Positions 429-7,057 of a DNA stretch of 42,464 nt are shown piece after piece; position 1 is the stretch's first letter; every line of letters begins with the position of its first letter. This DNA comes from a virus. The notes below the pieces were generated by a model. The model was not told where the DNA came from and did not search any database. It saw nothing but the letters and a program-made list of their open reading frames with translations. Position numbers and translations under genes: made by a program. The stretch covers positions 1 through 42,464 of the IMG/VR virus record IMGVR_UViG_3300032285_001383; one strand, written 5' to 3'.

Positions 429-2276
429 TCAGAGTATTCTCATACTGTCAATAGGGAACTCGTCTTCGTTTTCTTCTATTCCAAGGTAGTCCCGCAAATT
501 TGATGGCATTGTTTGTTTTTCAGGCATTTTAATAGTTCTATTTCTAATTAATCTTTCATCTGATTCTTTTCTTAATTGATCTAACTCGTCAGCAAATACC
601 CCAGCATACGTATATAACTCAACCTCTGGGTTAAGGTCTCTGGGGGTTAGGGCAACTGAATTGTATATTGCACCACAAACTGCGTCTGAAAGGTCCTTAG
701 AACCCTTTCTAGGGTGGTCTACCTTGTCTTTTACAATGCGAAGCTGAAGCAATTCATCAATAAGCAATTGAATTTTTGGACCGTCAACACGCTCTTCTGT
801 AATACAAAGCGACATGTCCTCATAATGCTTCTTGGCAACAGAAAGTGTTTCGCAATTCATTCCATGAGCTTTTAACTGTTGCATCATATCGTGAGAGTTC
901 CAACGGTCAAATGTAACCATCTTTATATTAAACCCACGTTCTCTTAAACTAATTATATAGTCTTTTACTTCTGTAAAATCTACAGACTTTGATGCAGTTG
1001 GAGTCCAGAATCTAACAGCATCCACAATAATTCTTGGTGCTGCTTCTTTATATTGATCTCCAATTTTCATAGTAACCCAATTGTGAACATGCGCTAATGC
1101 TACGGCACAATGGTCATGTTTTTGTGCAAGGTCAACGTGAACGTAATACCATTTTTCTGGATTTGGTTTAAATGTATCAGCAAAACGACCATATGAATCT
1201 ACATTTAAATTAGGATTTGCAAATGCTTTTTCAATTACTGCACGGTTCTTAAAGAACGCATCAGTTGCATCAGGTGGCATACAAGCAAAACGAGATAAAG
1301 CATCTGTTGGATCTGTATAAAAGTCAATAGTAAAATCAGTTATTGTGCGTGTAGGGTTGATTTCCCAAGTAGGACGTTTTAATGCATATACTCTAGGTAT
1401 CTTGTATGAAACAATATGATCCTCTTCCCATTCCATTTCAAATTCATTTCCTTCAGTTCCGTCGGGAAGATCTGGATCTACTTTAAATTTATGATGACGC
1501 AACAAAACTTCTTTTTCAGCAATGACCTCATTATATCTTTGTTGAATGTAGTCATTCTTAAAACGTGGGAATGAAAGTAAAATTACTTTACCAAAGTCTG
1601 GAAAACGAGAGTTTACAGATGCACGATACATCTTGTAAATAGATGAAGCAGTTTTAGCCTGTTCATTTCCAGATGTTGATTCAAGATCAAAGCCTGAAAT
1701 TTCATCAAGAATAACAACAAGAACGTTATATCCTTCCCAAGCTTCTCTTTCTGAGTGACCTGAGTGAACTGTTACACCTTTATCAAATTCAACCATATTT
1801 GCTTTTGATACGTATTTGCCTTGAAACCAAGGAGACTTTTCAATACGCTGATTAAAACCTTTAAAAAATACTCGGTTTGCCTGCACTGCGTTAATAGCAA
1901 TGTTAATAATATCAATAGCATCGCCTGGTGGTTTACCATAATATCTGGCAGGATCTGAAAGGCAAAGGAGTAAATGCACCATATATGCACAAGCAATTGT
2001 AGATGTATAGTCTTTACCAGAGCCCTTACCTAGTTGTAAGATTACTTCATTACATGTTTGCTTAAAGATCTTTCGACCTTCATCTTCCCCGTAAATTTTA
2101 ATAAGTGTTTCTTGTTTGTAAATTTGAGTAGAGGCTTTAATCATTGTATATTGATGCTCTGATAATGGTGGAAGCCCCAAGTAATCTTTACTTGTTACAA
2201 ATTCCTCAAGAGGTGCTGGTTTTTCTGTAAACTCATCGCCTTCAAGTGCATCTAAAAATAAATTAAAATCTGACAT
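429..2276 (-). CDS. terL: Terminase large subunit (packaging ATPase/nuclease)
   Basis: This is the motor that translocates phage DNA into the procapsid and cuts it. The 615 residues are normal for a two-domain TerL. The ATPase domain has a Walker A (LGKGSGKD, about 82-89) and a Walker B ending in catalytic acid (VLVVILDE, D191/E192). The C-terminal RNase H-like nuclease domain shows three well-spaced acidic positions: D382 in HVDLAQ, D457 in TFDRWN and D531 in KDLSDA. The start is set by a TAATG overlap with the preceding small subunit gene, so the two are translationally coupled. The packaging strategy (cos or pac) cannot be read from the sequence. Portal and capsid genes do not follow in the window; the left edge comes first. 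Confidence 0.95.
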   Translation of the reverse strand: MSDFNLFLDALEGDEFTEKPAPLEEFVTSKDYLGLPPLSEHQYTMIKASTQIYKQETLIKIYGEDEGRKIFKQTCNEVILQLGKGSGKDYTSTIACAYMVHLLLCLSDPARYYGKPPGDAIDIINIAINAVQANRVFFKGFNQRIEKSPWFQGKYVSKANMVEFDKGVTVHSGHSEREAWEGYNVLVVILDEISGFDLESTSGNEQAKTASSIYKMYRASVNSRFPDFGKVILLSFPRFKNDYIQQRYNEVIAEKEVLLRHHKFKVDPDLPDGTEGNEFEMEWEEDHIVSYKIPRVYALKRPTWEINPTRTITDFTIDFYTDPTDALSRFACMPPDATDAFFKNRAVIEKAFANPNLNVDSYGRFADTFKPNPEKWYYVHVDLAQKHDHCAVALAHVHNWVTMKIGDQYKEAAPRIIVDAVRFWTPTASKSVDFTEVKDYIISLRERGFNIKMVTFDRWNSHDMMQQLKAHGMNCETLSVAKKHYEDMSLCITEERVDGPKIQLLIDELLQLRIVKDKVDHPRKGSKDLSDAVCGAIYNSVALTPRDLNPEVELYTYAGVFADELDQLRKESDERLIRNRTIKMPEKQTMPSNLRDYLGIEENEDEFPIDSMRIL

Positions 2277-2800
2277 TAATCTACTATTACTGCTTCAACT
2301 TGCCCTGTAACTTGAGATAATCTCTTTGAAACTTCCCATTTACATTTTTCACAATTTGCAGTAACATCCTTTAATATACCAACAAGAATATCTTGCTTAC
2401 GTTCTGATTCCAGGATCTGGTCTGCCATTGAATCGCTTTCAAGAACTCCCGCCTTGTTAAGCATATCAATGCGTTTTGCTTCAATATCTGCAATAAGCTT
2501 TAGTGCTGCATTTTTAGTGCTTAGCTCTGATGCTATTCCTGCTTCGTTTACAACATCCCATGCTTCTTTAATAAGCATGTTGTAATGTTCATCAGCACCA
2601 GCAAGTGCCTCTTTTGCACGTTCTCTAATTATCTTACTATCTTGAACAAAGTTTTTCCAACTTTTAATGTGGTTATCAACTTGAACTCTTGTGAGTCCTA
2701 GACTAGAAGCTATCTTAGCTGGGGAGTTACCTTTAAGAACTTCCTCAACAACTTTATTCATTTGATCAAATTGACCAGCAAGCTCTATTGAATTATCCAT
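2276..2800 (-). CDS. terS: Terminase small subunit (DNA-binding packaging initiator)
   Basis: TerS recognises the packaging site and loads TerL. This 174-residue protein has an N-terminal helix-turn-helix (SPAKIASSLGLTRVQVDNHI, about 26-45), a helical middle suited to oligomerisation, and a C-terminal region with a CEKC motif. Assignment rests on size, the HTH and direct coupling to terL by a one-base TAATG overlap; sequence conservation in TerS is always low. Its ATG overlaps the last bases of the upstream 58-aa FmdB-like gene by 8 bases, so the three genes form one packaging unit driven by the promoter at 2975-3004. Confidence 0.85.
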   Translation of the reverse strand: MDNSIELAGQFDQMNKVVEEVLKGNSPAKIASSLGLTRVQVDNHIKSWKNFVQDSKIIRERAKEALAGADEHYNMLIKEAWDVVNEAGIASELSTKNAALKLIADIEAKRIDMLNKAGVLESDSMADQILESERKQDILVGILKDVTANCEKCKWEVSKRLSQVTGQVEAVIVD

Positions 2801-2974: not shown

Positions 2975-3004
2975 ATTATACTCCACTATCTACACTCTTG
3001 TCAA
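2975..3004 (-). promoter_or_regulatory. Consensus sigma-70 promoter for the fmdB-terS-terL unit
   Basis: On the minus strand, TTGACA (2999-3004) and TATAAT (2975-2980) are both perfect matches to consensus, separated by 18 bases. The element lies within the last codons of the methyltransferase gene. The expected start point, about 6-7 bases past the -10 box, falls at or next to the A of the FmdB ATG (2969), and no ribosome binding site precedes that ATG. Confidence 0.8.
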
Positions 3005-3557
3005 TGTAAAAAACCATTAATGTGTTTTTAATCCAAATATCTGGCATATTATGCCTCATTTTTAAAGCTTCTGCTTCATTAAATACCCAACCTCTTTTAT
3101 TCATTTCAGCAATAACATAAGAATTGTTTTGACAATTAACGTGTCCTAGGCCATATTGACCTTCTACTGCCCATGACAATATTGCATGTTTTGTAGAACT
3201 ATTTGTAATATTATTAATAAATGTTTGTTCAAATTGTTTTGGGATATGCTCTCCAACCTCAATGGATATAACCAAATCTACGGGAGACAAATTTAAATCT
3301 TTTGATAGATCAGCTTTTAATATATTGCTATATATGCCATTTGTTTGTTCTCCTTCAAATCCCGTAGCTTCAATTTTATCATCCATCTCTTTGATTTTTT
3401 GCAAATATTCACCACGACCACAACCAAAATCATAGACAGTTTTAATATTGTTTTTTACAATATAATAATTAATTTCTTTAGATAATTCAGGAATAAATAA
3501 ATGTTCTTCGTCTTTATTTGAAATCCAAAAACCTGTTTCAGAAACTATGTTCTCCAT
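2976..3557 (-). CDS. Class I SAM-dependent methyltransferase
   Basis: This protein is predicted to transfer a methyl group from S-adenosylmethionine. The 193 residues are a single Rossmann-type domain: motif I VYDFGCGRGEYL (about 41-52), an acidic end of strand 2 (ATGFEGE), and a motif IV-like segment DLVISIEVGEHIP (about 94-106). The resemblance is to the small-molecule/sugar type found in glycan clusters rather than to base-specific DNA methylases; there is no NPPY or PC motif. It abuts the GT2-like gene (one gene stops where the next starts) and lies in the same cassette as two glycosyltransferases, so a sugar or virion-glycan substrate is the simplest inference. Its 3' end carries the terminase promoter. 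Confidence 0.82.
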   Translation of the reverse strand: MENIVSETGFWISNKDEEHLFIPELSKEINYYIVKNNIKTVYDFGCGRGEYLQKIKEMDDKIEATGFEGEQTNGIYSNILKADLSKDLNLSPVDLVISIEVGEHIPKQFEQTFINNITNSSTKHAILSWAVEGQYGLGHVNCQNNSYVIAEMNKRGWVFNEAEALKMRHNMPDIWIKNTLMVFYIDKSVDSGV

Positions 3558-4280
3558 TTATCTTTTCTCCTTGTTCATATATGTTTCATAAAAATATTTT
3601 TGATTATTATTAATGTTACTATCCCATTCTTTTTTGTGAAATATTGACAAAGCTATTCCAGGAATATAATCATAAACATTTTTATATTGATCAAAATATT
3701 TTAAAAAATAAGCATTGTCTTCAAATCCCCATCCTACAAAATTTTCATCAAAACCACCAAGCTGTTCCCATACAGCTTTTGAAATTACATTGACTCCAGA
3801 TGACGGTATTAAACTTGAAGGCTCGTTATTTAAAACTACGGGGGCATCACCTTTCCAAGAGTCTTTTTGAATACATTCTTTTTCATTATTAAAAAACATA
3901 TCTGTTCCTTCTGATGTAAGCTCTATAAACAAATCATATGGGTTTGCAATTGAATTATTTTTTATTGCAACTTTTATAGCTTCAAATAAAGATTCTTTAG
4001 ATACAAATACATCTGCATCTGATACAACAACAAAATCACAATCTTGATCAAACGCTTTTTTTAAACCAATGTTTCTACTAGCAGATAAGTTAAATATTTC
4101 TGAGCCAGAATCACACAAAATAATTTTAAGGTTGGGGAAATTTAATTCATACCAGCTTTTTAATAAATAAAAAGCTTTTAATCTACTTTCAGTTTCTCTC
4201 CAAGGAATTACTATGCAACCAGATAAGTCTATATTTGTATCTAAATCTTCATTTGAAAAAAATGATCTTTTATTGAACAT
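3558..4280 (-). CDS. Glycosyltransferase, GT2/GT7 C-terminal-like
   Basis: The protein is predicted to transfer a sugar from a nucleotide-sugar donor. The fold runs from an N-terminal strand (CIVIPWRET) to a donor/metal motif DAD (VVVSDADVFV, near residues 88-90) and a C-terminal acceptor-side motif GGFDENFVGWGFEDN. That last motif matches the WGxED-type galactosyltransferase C-terminal region. I place the start at the ATG at 4280 (240 aa), because the longer frame to 4313 begins with TTG and lacks a clear ribosome binding site; the ATG overlaps the preceding stop by 11 bases. It has no membrane segment, so it should be cytoplasmic. The acceptor (DNA, virion protein or host glycan) is not shown by the sequence. 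Confidence 0.85.
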   Translation of the reverse strand: MFNKRSFFSNEDLDTNIDLSGCIVIPWRETESRLKAFYLLKSWYELNFPNLKIILCDSGSEIFNLSASRNIGLKKAFDQDCDFVVVSDADVFVSKESLFEAIKVAIKNNSIANPYDLFIELTSEGTDMFFNNEKECIQKDSWKGDAPVVLNNEPSSLIPSSGVNVISKAVWEQLGGFDENFVGWGFEDNAYFLKYFDQYKNVYDYIPGIALSIFHKKEWDSNINNNQKYFYETYMNKEKR

Positions 4281-4623
4281 CCTGTTTATTTGCCTTATCT
4301 TTGTCAATTGCAATTTTAAGTAAAATTAAATAACCAATCAAATCATCAATATCATTATCACCAGCAAATCCTTGATTGTTTTTTACACGATTAATCTTGT
4401 CATCAATTCTAATTTTAATCTGTTCAATATTGTCAGATTGTGCAAAAATTCTAACTGGGCTGAGTGCTGAATCTCCATAAGATACATTCTTTTTTATAAG
4501 CATTTCTGTTATATCTAAACAGGTTCTAATGATTGCATTACCTGAAGGGGCACCTGTTGCTATTAACTGAAGATCTGTAATCCAAGTTTGAAAACCGCCT
4601 TCTTTGTTTGGATATCCTGTCAC
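4270..4623 (-). CDS. Nmad1-like (DUF1599) nucleotide modification-associated protein
   Basis: The 117-residue protein shows the pattern of the Nmad1/DUF1599 family: KKNVSYGDSALSP followed by RIDDKINRV and DDIDDLIGYLILLKIA, with conserved Asp residues in a helical fold related to MazG-like enzymes. Members occur in phage genomes and were named for genomic association with base modification; the biochemical activity is not settled. It starts with GTG at 4623, supported by AGGAG six bases upstream. It is enclosed by two glycosyltransferase genes, overlapping the downstream GT2-like gene by 11 bases, which suggests that it works with them or was acquired with them. Confidence 0.65.
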   Translation of the reverse strand: MTGYPNKEGGFQTWITDLQLIATGAPSGNAIIRTCLDITEMLIKKNVSYGDSALSPVRIFAQSDNIEQIKIRIDDKINRVKNNQGFAGDNDIDDLIGYLILLKIAIDKDKANKQDVQ

Positions 4624-4624
4624 C

Positions 4625-5293
4625 TTACTCTCCTATTCTTTTCTGATGATGTATTGTAGTTCCTAATTCTACTCCGTGAACTCCATGCTTTGCATGAGGC
4701 ATTAAAGTATATATATTAAAATGTTGTGGTGAATAAAACAGATGTATATCAATTGGTCTTTCTACAACTTCTTGTTCAACACTTTTAATAATCTTTTTAA
4801 CTGATTTTTTATTAATTACATAGCATAAAAGCCAATTTCCTTGCCAAGCTTTACAAACATAAGGACTTCCAATTCCGTGCTCTTCTTCATTATAAAAACT
4901 ACTTCCATTGTTAGCACATCCAAAAAAGAATATGTCCCAATTTTGTGGTAGGTCTTTCATATACAGATTTAATAAATTAAAGAAGTCTTTTTCAAAAGAT
5001 ATGTCATCTTCCATTAAAATAAGATAATCACAACCTGATTCATCAAATTTTTTCCAAGCAGCGTAATTGCTTGCCCATACTCCAACTTCACCATATCTAA
5101 AACCAATTTTTTTATTAATATTAAATTTAGGATATTTAGAATAAAAATTTGCTAATTGATCATCATTTGAAATCTCAATTGCTTCAGAATCTAATTCATC
5201 AGAATATTCATTTAAATAATTATTAATTTCATTTGCATAGAATTTTCTATTTAAATCTTTTTCTAGATGAAAAACTTTATGTAAAAAATTCAT
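4625..5293 (-). CDS. Glycosyltransferase family 25-like protein
   Basis: The 222-residue protein matches the GT25 (LPS beta-galactosyltransferase-like) family. It has the segment GEVGVWASNYAAWKKF (about 68-83) followed by the acidic donor/metal motif LILMEDDISF (E95, D96, D97), and a later WQGNWLLCYVINKKSV region typical of the family's second half. It has no signal or membrane segment. It begins at a TAATG overlap with the 53-aa HTH gene and is the first gene of the modification cassette. Two glycosyltransferases of different families next to a methyltransferase suggest a short, decorated glycan; the target is unknown. Confidence 0.85.
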   Translation of the reverse strand: MNFLHKVFHLEKDLNRKFYANEINNYLNEYSDELDSEAIEISNDDQLANFYSKYPKFNINKKIGFRYGEVGVWASNYAAWKKFDESGCDYLILMEDDISFEKDFFNLLNLYMKDLPQNWDIFFFGCANNGSSFYNEEEHGIGSPYVCKAWQGNWLLCYVINKKSVKKIIKSVEQEVVERPIDIHLFYSPQHFNIYTLMPHAKHGVHGVELGTTIHHQKRIGE

Positions 5294-5454
5294 TACTTAG
5301 TCCATTTTCTTTGTTGTTTAATCAAACCCCATCTTTGCAAGGATCTTTGTATAGTCATATGGCTGCACTTAGCTTCCATAGCCATCTCAAGTATTGTTTT
5401 CTTTTCTACGACATAGCGTTTGTAACACCAGTCTTTGCTATCATACAATTTCAT
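5293..5454 (-). CDS. Small helix-turn-helix protein (53 aa)
   Basis: A short gene below usual length cut-offs fills what looks like a gap. It begins MKLYDSKDWCYKRYVVEKKT and contains the HTH-like stretch ILEMAMEAKCSHMTIQRSLQ (about 21-40), followed by RWGLIKQQRKW. This layout (WLYxxYVxEKKTxxEMAxEAxCSxxTIxRxL) is seen in stand-alone HTH proteins and HTH tails of phage-borne endonucleases. The ATG overlaps the end of ruvC by 14 bases and the stop overlaps the GT25 start (TAATG), a good sign of real coupling. A DNA-binding role is likely; the target is unknown. It could be a relic of a homing endonuclease. Confidence 0.75.
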   Translation of the reverse strand: MKLYDSKDWCYKRYVVEKKTILEMAMEAKCSHMTIQRSLQRWGLIKQQRKWTK

Positions 5455-5998
5455 TTATAGCATACCACGCAATTCCAGTAGCATCCGCCACATTATCCGA
5501 TTCTGTTTTAACACCCAATGAACTAGCAAATCCAATAGTCTTGGATTTTCTAAGCTCTCTAATCTTTCCTTTATACCAGGTTTCTGATTTTCCAGGGAAT
5601 TCATTTTTAACCGCCAACTTTTCCGCTTTAGTAAAATTTTTGTTACCAATATAGGACTGCCAGGTTATAGGATGAACTTCAACCACTTGCATATTATCAC
5701 TAAGTAACTCTCCCATTATAGCACCAAATACGTATGCCATCTTAATTCCCGTGTGCACAGACTTAACTGATATTGCTGCCTCAATAACAACAAAATCAGT
5801 ATCTAATTCTTTTTTAAAAGCTTTGATTTTACGCTTGGCATCAAGAATTCTTTGATAAATATCACCACCATCAAAGGTGATCTCTCCCCATTTAACAGGC
5901 TTTTTTCCATCCATTAGGCAAAAAGCAATACTGTTAGTGCTTGCATCTATGCCTAAAACTTTGCCTGATTTTTTATTAACGAGCTTTGCCAGAGACAT
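5441..5998 (-). CDS. ruvC: RuvC-like Holliday junction resolvase
   Basis: The protein is predicted to cut four-way DNA junctions formed in replication and recombination before packaging. The RNase H-like fold shows the expected acidic residues: D18 in VLGIDAS, E73 in VIEAA, and D168/D172 near the C-terminus in ESDNVADA. At 185 residues it is close to bacterial RuvC (about 170). Its start overlaps the upstream zinc-finger gene by 23 bases. No RuvA or RuvB partner is present, as is normal for phage versions. A second, unrelated resolvase-like gene lies about 1.5 kb upstream. Confidence 0.92.
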   Translation of the reverse strand: MSLAKLVNKKSGKVLGIDASTNSIAFCLMDGKKPVKWGEITFDGGDIYQRILDAKRKIKAFKKELDTDFVVIEAAISVKSVHTGIKMAYVFGAIMGELLSDNMQVVEVHPITWQSYIGNKNFTKAEKLAVKNEFPGKSETWYKGKIRELRKSKTIGFASSLGVKTESDNVADATGIAWYAINEIV

Positions 5999-6272
5999 TT
6001 CTCACCATCGCTACTAATGCAAGACGCTCTTCTTCTTTTTTAGCACCCTGACACTTATCACAGATACGACCTTCGTTGTATCTACTAAGGATGACGTTGC
6101 ACCCTGTTGTTTTGCATATTCTTTCTTTTCCAGCTAATCTAGCTTTCTTTTCATAATATGCTTCTTTTAATTTTTGATTTGTTGCTGTTCTGCAGCACTC
6201 ATCAGAACAATACTTTTGATTGTGTGTTTTAGGTTGAAACTCGTTATTACACTCTTCGTATGCACATATCAT
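5976..6272 (-). CDS. Small zinc-finger protein (98 aa), two Cys clusters
   Basis: Two zinc-binding clusters are visible. The first is an N-terminal C-x4-C (ICAYEEC) with a second half QKYCSDEC, the layout of CxxxxC...YCSxxC fingers common in phage and HNH-associated proteins. The second is CKTTGC...CDKC in the C-terminal half. A charged helix (KLKEAYYEKKARLAGKER) separates them. It overlaps the Cas4-like gene by four bases (ATGA) and ruvC by 23, so it is co-translated with two nucleases and probably binds DNA or a nuclease partner. No enzymatic motif is seen. Confidence 0.8.
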   Translation of the reverse strand: MICAYEECNNEFQPKTHNQKYCSDECCRTATNQKLKEAYYEKKARLAGKERICKTTGCNVILSRYNEGRICDKCQGAKKEEERLALVAMVRNVSGKAR

Positions 6273-7057
6273 TTTTGAAGAACTAGAGGCTCAATATAAA
6301 CCTCACCCTCCTCATTTTTCATATCTTTCCAGCATACGTTCTTGACTGGACAACCTTTACAAGCCCATTGAGACTTGGTAAATGTTCTTTCTGGCAAAGT
6401 ATTATCTTCATAAGCCTTATATACCCTACGCATCCAATCCCAAACACTGTTGATTAGTTCAGTATTCTTTTCATCCATATTGATTGGAATAACTAAAAAG
6501 CTATTATCATTCTTGTTTTCATAGAAAAAGAAACCCTGTTGAGCCCCACGAATTTTCATATAAGTAAGAAGCTGAACTTTATGATATGGAAGACCTTCCA
6601 TCTCAGCTTGACGAATGTCAAAAATTTCTTGCTTGGCAGACTTTATTTCGCCTACTACTTCCTTGCCGTTCCATTCGATAAAAGTGTCTGCAAAGCCTCG
6701 AATTGGAGGATCATCATGGGTAACTTCTGTTTCATTTGCTTTGAAGACTGGCGTTTTAGCCATGACCTTCTGTATCCTATCATGAACATACGTACCGTTA
6801 TCCATGTTAGACACACCCATAGCATCGGTGTTATTCTCAAACTCCGCACCATTAAAAGCAATGAACCAATATCTAGGACAGTTACCGTTACCGTAACCAA
6901 CACCGCTAGGGCTAAAAGTCTTTTTCTGGGTAAATTCATCTGGTCTTTTTCCACTTAATACTGCCTCCTCATACATTTCTGCAAACTTGATTGGATCAAA
7001 TCCTTCTGGATCCGATATCTTTTTAAACTTAAGATTAGCAATTATATCTCTTCCCAT
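6269..7057 (-). CDS. Cas4/RecB-family PD-(D/E)XK exonuclease with Fe-S cysteines
   Basis: A predicted DNA exonuclease, the phage recombination/repair type rather than a CRISPR component; no array or other cas gene is present. Catalytic positions are H92 (VHDRI), D124 in GFADTF, E137-x-K139 in VGEIKSAK, and Q162 in VQLLTY. A four-cysteine iron-sulfur arrangement brackets the fold as in Cas4 and AddB: C60 (GNCPRYW) near the N-terminal side and C233-x2-C236-x5-C242 at the C-terminus. The length of 262 residues is typical. It sits between small zinc proteins and a RecA-like gene, suggesting strand processing for homologous recombination. Confidence 0.9.
   Translation of the reverse strand: MGRDIIANLKFKKISDPEGFDPIKFAEMYEEAVLSGKRPDEFTQKKTFSPSGVGYGNGNCPRYWFIAFNGAEFENNTDAMGVSNMDNGTYVHDRIQKVMAKTPVFKANETEVTHDDPPIRGFADTFIEWNGKEVVGEIKSAKQEIFDIRQAEMEGLPYHKVQLLTYMKIRGAQQGFFFYENKNDNSFLVIPINMDEKNTELINSVWDWMRRVYKAYEDNTLPERTFTKSQWACKGCPVKNVCWKDMKNEEGEVYIEPLVLQK

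Follow-up and report, generated by a model that had tools for sequence, protein, structure and literature searches.

Glycosylated phage DNA, in the forms known, requires a hydroxylated base. In bacteria, the exchange loci for O-antigen and capsule have fixed flanks, between which glycosyltransferases (GTs), sugar-nucleotide enzymes and methyltransferases (MTs) are swapped in DNA of low GC content. Glycosylation of virions by phage GTs has been established for the mycobacteriophages Che8, Corndog and Myrna (Freeman et al. 2023, as cited in PMC12363180, PMC12619734 and PMC11256854), and cytosolic phage GTs are likewise found in the T4 type of glycosylated, hypermodified phage DNA (Pyle et al. 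2024, as cited in PMC12619734). In isolated Ca. Nanopelagicales phages, GTs have been suggested to protect the DNA or to modify the cell wall (PMC10202952). Here we describe a block of four minus-strand genes between ruvC and the terminase genes of the IMG/VR virus record IMGVR_UViG_3300032285_001383, the whole of which (positions 1 to 42,464) is the window of this study. In the order of transcription, they encode a GT25-family GT, a protein of 117 amino acids (aa) that we call N117, a GT2/GT7-like GT (GT2) and an S-adenosylmethionine (SAM)-dependent MT. The original prediction had taken them for one system, including an Nmad1-like gene, that could decorate either DNA or virion proteins. We favour, with modest confidence, a different reading, namely an exchange locus for short, tailored glycans with a virion protein as the likeliest acceptor, in a phage group related to the Streptomyces phages of the Stanwilliamsviridae.

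The block is real and not an accident of assembly, because a second contig (L082) matches 5,744 bp of the window, including all four genes, at 99.9% identity. All four open reading frames (ORFs) are present where they had been placed, and their predicted identities hold for the sugar and methyl enzymes, as both GTs score above their Pfam cut-offs and the MT has a SAM motif. We recruited 80 relatives with the terminase and 80 with N117, most of which are genome fragments, as is the window itself. Alignment with sister loci gave 72-87% similarity up to positions 5285-5297, which correspond to the stop/start overlap of a helix-turn-helix (HTH) gene and the GT25 gene. In the closest sisters, homology comes back for N117, from 4622-4591 to 4300-4289, and it returns once more near 2984, within the last bases of the MT gene. 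Because sister homology ends and resumes so abruptly around N117, the sequence points to two slots flanking this gene, slot A before it with GT25 and slot B after it with GT2 and MT; in sisters whose slot B holds something else, homology returns at 2841. The three cargo genes have a GC content of 0.27-0.29 versus 0.373 +/- 0.029 in the other genes, which is 2.8 to 3.7 standard deviations low, and within the phage group the GT2 and MT of the window were found only in the window and L082.

The length of the gap between ruvC and the terminase varies from 494 to 6,133 bp among the relatives. When the N117-bearing intervals were collapsed at 95% identity, the resulting 73 dereplicated loci had 27 arrangements around N117. 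Both slots were empty in 14 loci, slot A was filled in 59 and slot B in 12, the filling of slot B being in some cases only a small DUF7246-like ORF. The cargo is nearly confined to predicted sugar-tailoring functions: a GT and/or an MT is present in 58 of the 59 cargo-bearing loci (main representatives named by Pfam, several singleton clusters by reading of the sequence), and the exception has a sulfotransferase-like gene. Further cargo includes epimerases, RmlC, a mannose-6-phosphate isomerase cupin, cytidylyltransferases and sugar-nucleotidyltransferase-like proteins. On a tree of 92 terminases, the minimum number of changes was 53 for the exact arrangement, 34 for the GT/MT class and 5 for the core slot (N117, a kinase or neither), which shows a fast turnover of cargo against near-constant flanks. 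The terminases of L070 and L073 are identical and their MTs differ; L036 and L038 have terminases with 99.5% identity and wholly different cargo. Purifying selection is indicated by the ratios of nonsynonymous to synonymous substitution rates (dN/dS) of the nucleoside triphosphate (NTP) transferase (0.09), GT32 (0.14), GT2 (0.18) and one MT family (0.07). For GT25, 12 pairs from a mixed cluster gave a median of 0.73, a value that we leave without interpretation.

Slots A and B would take up varying sets of GTs, sugar-nucleotide enzymes and MTs, and recombination in the conserved genes on either side is the most likely route. HNH-like genes were also observed in or beside the exchange slots of L036, L038 (6691-7299) and L185 (4135-4854). 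They bracket different cargo on the nearly identical backbones of L036 and L038, and might promote exchange. The 53-aa HTH protein at the edge of slot A (5293-5454) is similar to phage HNH endonucleases in their DNA-binding part but has no nuclease.

The same position is occupied by comparable genes in isolated Stanwilliamsviridae. Kenrey and Blueeyedbeauty carry two GTs and a nucleotidyltransferase after RuvC and an HTH gene and before the terminase, and Wakanda and Yaboi have an MT there, whereas no GT or MT is annotated at that position in the Rhodococcus phages Trina and Grayson. Kenrey and Blueeyedbeauty differ from the window in having a deoxynucleoside monophosphate (dNMP) kinase in place of N117, and their cargo is not closely related to that of the window (21% for GT25 against Blueeyedbeauty). 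The locus also resembles the bacterial O-antigen and capsule loci in its fixed flanks, swapped sets of sugar genes and low GC content. Unlike those loci, it is borne by a phage, comprises one to seven genes and is split by a core gene, and neither a polymerase nor a flippase was seen.

The tight, overlapping packing of the four genes on one strand could suggest one integrated system, in which N117 helps to make or attach the methylated glycan. We consider this framing, which was that of the original prediction, very improbable. N117 keeps its place through all 27 arrangements, including the 14 empty dereplicated loci; sisters retain it at 82-86% DNA identity without any of the three cargo genes, and cargo turns over about ten times as fast as the core slot. 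N117 instead behaves as a conserved core gene, and GT25, GT2 and MT as exchangeable cargo in separate slots. The unbiased set consists of the 53 loci recruited with the terminase that extend from ruvC to the small terminase gene, and N117 was found in 43 of them; the overall count of 134 in 158 loci is partly circular, half of the loci having been fetched with N117. In the 73 dereplicated loci and on the terminase tree, it occurs with or without sugar genes and independently of them, and its median dN/dS of 0.086 indicates purifying selection.

Searches of Pfam with N117 gave zero matches, PF07659 (Nmad1/DUF1599) had no match in the window or in 26 relatives at E values up to 10, and sequence searches of NCBIfam and the PDB returned nothing useful. 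We therefore tested the kinship to Nmad1 through PHROGs, an HMM bridge and hhalign. Geobacillus phage gp57 (L173) and the proteins of L175 and L177 exceed the PF07659 cut-off and match phrog_1485, the PHROG of N117. Aligned with hhalign, the N117 family and these PF07659 members gave a probability of 96.9% (E 1.9e-10, 33% identity over 72 columns), and N117 and Nmad1 have in common the motif K-N-x-x-Y-G-[DN]-S ... R-x-x-D-K-x-x-R ... D-x-[AG]-x-Y. The AlphaFold2 model of N117 is a four-helix bundle with a predicted local distance difference test (pLDDT) score of 85.6. In Foldseek, the best predicted viral structures after its own family were annotated Nmad1 proteins, with a probability of 1.00 but E values of 0.03-0.08 for this short helical bundle. 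By sequence profile, N117 thus appears to be a divergent relative of Nmad1/DUF1599, not a Pfam member by the gathering threshold. The Nmad1-like label of the original prediction was accordingly supported by PHROG membership and hhalign and, less firmly, by the fold search; the HMM check that it had proposed succeeded only in part, in that the Pfam model stayed silent and homology emerged through the PHROG and hhalign. The prediction had also let the sugar and methyl cassette stand or fall with a match to Nmad1. Because N117 and the sugar genes are not linked in evolution, such a match is irrelevant to the latter.

A dNMP/thymidylate kinase is encoded in the interval between ruvC and the terminase in 11 loci (L050-L054, L057, L162, L169-L172), none of which has N117. 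This distribution is suggestive of the kinase and N117 being alternatives in one slot, although, with only two changes required for the kinase label on the tree, it gives no statistical proof. As these kinases never co-occur with N117, our best guess is that N117 has a role in nucleotide metabolism, as a helper rather than a glycan enzyme. For a MazG-type pyrophosphatase, the fold matches (2yxh and 2p06) were weak, and PF03819 (MazG) had no match in the window. The idea that N117 replaces MazG was rejected, as MazG is also encoded by eight of the relatives that have N117. Relatives of N117 also occur away from sugar genes, beside the sliding clamp and clamp loader in cyanophage S-CRM01 (L159:3974-4837) and upstream of the terminase in Microbacterium phage WaterT (L160:4137-4577). 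In L037:42-371 and L038:6353-6661, the C-terminal half of N117 is replaced (NSFQKPIGIFSKLPAREQ...) by one nearly identical in both, and the N-terminal halves differ; both proteins are apparent chimeras. In L049, a locus without N117, the interval holds a DUF3310 gene as well as an IMPDH-like one (5713-6967).

The presence of an Nmad1-like neighbour, of a domain that Pfam names for nucleotide modification, and the position of the block among recombination and packaging genes could suggest DNA decoration, in which a modified base would be made, the GTs would add sugars, the MT would cap the sugar and the DNA would escape restriction. DNA protection is also one of the functions proposed for the GTs of isolated Ca. 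Nanopelagicales phages (PMC10202952), and weak, sub-threshold matches to Tet_JBP, a 2-oxoglutarate oxygenase domain, occur in three relatives (G017:29575-29742, G014:25536-25715 and G010:11070-11321), where they may mark protein, sugar or base oxygenases. Tet_JBP (PF12851) never matched over the cut-off, however, and searches of the window and of 18 relatives, among them Kenrey with its complete genome, gave no match to PF00303, the thymidylate-synthase type of hydroxymethylase. PF00303 was also not found on the 109,918-bp phage contig L185; the single match in the metagenome-assembled genome (MAG) that holds L185 sits on another contig (55,862 bp). The observation in the original prediction that no base hydroxymethylase is seen agrees with these searches of the window, the 18 relatives and L185. 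N117 likewise has no linked base-modification enzyme in the window, and its presence is independent of the sugar genes. The locus shares cytosolic phage GTs with the T4 type of modified DNA and differs from it in that these enzymes were not found over cut-off and in GT families that resemble enzymes for proteins or glycans. We regard DNA decoration, the weaker of the two options offered originally, as unlikely; the case against a DNA target is good but not closed, most records being fragments.

The nearest solved structures to GT25 are procollagen galactosyltransferase 1 and mimivirus R655, and the nearest to GT2 is beta-1,4-galactosyltransferase 1. Because these closest structures belong to GTs that act on proteins or on glycans, and because no thymidylate-synthase-type hydroxymethylase was found, a virion protein is the likeliest acceptor, in favour of the other original option, virion proteins bearing a methyl-capped glycan. 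GT25 together with the beta-galactosyltransferase-like GT2 and the MT, whose substrate is probably a sugar, would build a short glycan bearing a methyl group on a virion protein in the host cytosol, and swaps of cargo would alter the particle surface. As read from the sequence, a GT2 relative at 48% (L164) is flanked by MT-like genes with another GT-like gene nearby, and epimerase-, cytidylyltransferase- and FkbM-like genes are close to an MT relative at 42% (L166). GT2 also matches gp229 of mycobacteriophage ET08 (cluster C1) at 30%, and gp229 is located in a cluster of four GTs beside a virion structural gene. In L135:4082-4663, an Asp/Asn beta-hydroxylase-like gene (PF05118) was seen once, directly before a GT25 gene and an MT gene; a protein hydroxylase beside a GT that resembles procollagen galactosyltransferase would be in keeping with a protein target. 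A collagen-like acceptor for GT25 was considered and rejected, as the tail proteins of the window have no Gly-X-Y run of five or more.

Alternatively, the enzymes could alter a host surface glycan or its precursor and thereby mask the receptor from superinfecting phages or released particles. The cargo set, with epimerase, RmlC, mannose-6-phosphate isomerase, cytidylyltransferase and GTs, is like that of bacterial surface-polysaccharide loci, and cell-wall modification has been proposed for GTs of relatives (PMC10202952). We find this explanation doubtful. The cargo of the window has neither a transmembrane segment nor a flippase, and no flippase was seen among the cargo clusters either. Temperate phages are the best-known agents of surface conversion, and no lysogeny genes turned up in the window, though no search was aimed at them.

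Glycosylation of the virion by a swappable gene set remains our preferred reading, and several points weigh against it. Che8, Corndog and Myrna likewise use phage-encoded cytosolic GTs, and ET08 has the GT2 relative, but their GTs are different ones, and the genes of the window lie between ruvC and the terminase together with an MT. Neither GT2 nor GT25 had a match in Myrna, and neither Che8 nor Corndog was among the phage matches listed, so that the tie to proven virion glycosylation is one of analogy. In our case, genes of the window type are swapped between near-identical phages, and we infer virion glycosylation from the genes alone. A base-modifying enzyme may be encoded elsewhere in the genomes, most relatives being fragments, soluble GTs could act on host surface precursors, and there is no known selective reason for glycan swapping in environmental phages.

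What stands out is an exchange locus that varies the theme of known phage glycosylation gene sets, and not a new DNA-modification system. Tentatively, it may be the phage counterpart of a bacterial serotype locus, a fixed site of two slots around a core gene for nucleotide metabolism at which complete sets for glycan synthesis are exchanged; near-identical phages would then differ in their virion glycans, and these would influence attachment or how well particles survive. Phage glycosylation is commonly described for one gene set at a time, and a swap site offers a natural series of glycan variants on near-identical phages. Such a series lets one ask what the sugars of phage surfaces do beyond evading antibodies, which are hardly the driver in phages of free-living bacteria. 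It also illustrates that an Nmad1-like gene among sugar genes need not mean a DNA-modification system.

Table 1. Genes of the exchange locus and its flanks in the window.
Feature	Position	Strand	Assignment and supporting matches
Terminase large subunit	429..2276	-	core; PHROG terminase matches; 67% identity to Streptomyces phage Kenrey
Gene preceding terL	2276..2800	-	core flank; phrog_9507 E 2e-54, unannotated PHROG
FmdB-like zinc ribbon, 58 aa	2793..2969	-	slot B flank; PF09723 E 3e-7, below cut-off
Class I SAM methyltransferase (MT), 193 aa	2976..3557	-	slot B cargo; weak Methyltransf_23 and PHROG methyltransferase matches
GT2/GT7 glycosyltransferase	3558..4280	-	slot B cargo; PF10111 50.3 bits (cut-off 27.3), PF02709 29.7 bits (cut-off 23)
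N117, 117 aa, GTG start	4270..4623	-	core gene between slots; phrog_1485 E 2e-13
GT25 glycosyltransferase, 222 aa	4625..5293	-	slot A cargo; PF01755 34.3 bits (cut-off 24)
HTH protein, 53 aa	5293..5454	-	core; phrog_9759 E 3e-7; sister homology ends there
RuvC-like resolvase	5441..5998	-	core flank; phrog_159 E 1e-25; found in 125/158 loci

The stop codon of the HTH gene and the start codon of GT25 share one base (TAATG, 5293), and a 1-base gap separates GT25 from N117. The GT2 start overlaps the N117 stop by 11 bases, and GT2 and MT adjoin without a gap. Translation of GT2 probably starts at the ATG at 4280 (240 aa) rather than at the TTG at 4313. GT25 (GC 0.268) has the EDD motif within LILMEDDISF, GT2 has the DAD and GGFDENFVGWGFEDN motifs, and the SAM motif of the MT, DFGCGRGEYL, is intact, its Pfam matches being weak and below the cut-off. 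The zinc-ribbon gene is a core gene in most relatives and is absent or replaced in some. The gene preceding terL probably encodes the terminase small subunit, judging from its position. An assignment of the host through genome contigs was not used, because the two matches, in MAGs labelled cyanobacterium and Cytophagaceae, are probably misbinned phage contigs. Downstream of the terminase, the window has a tRNA-Asn (GTT) gene at 22-95, and several tRNA genes are found at the same place in Kenrey.

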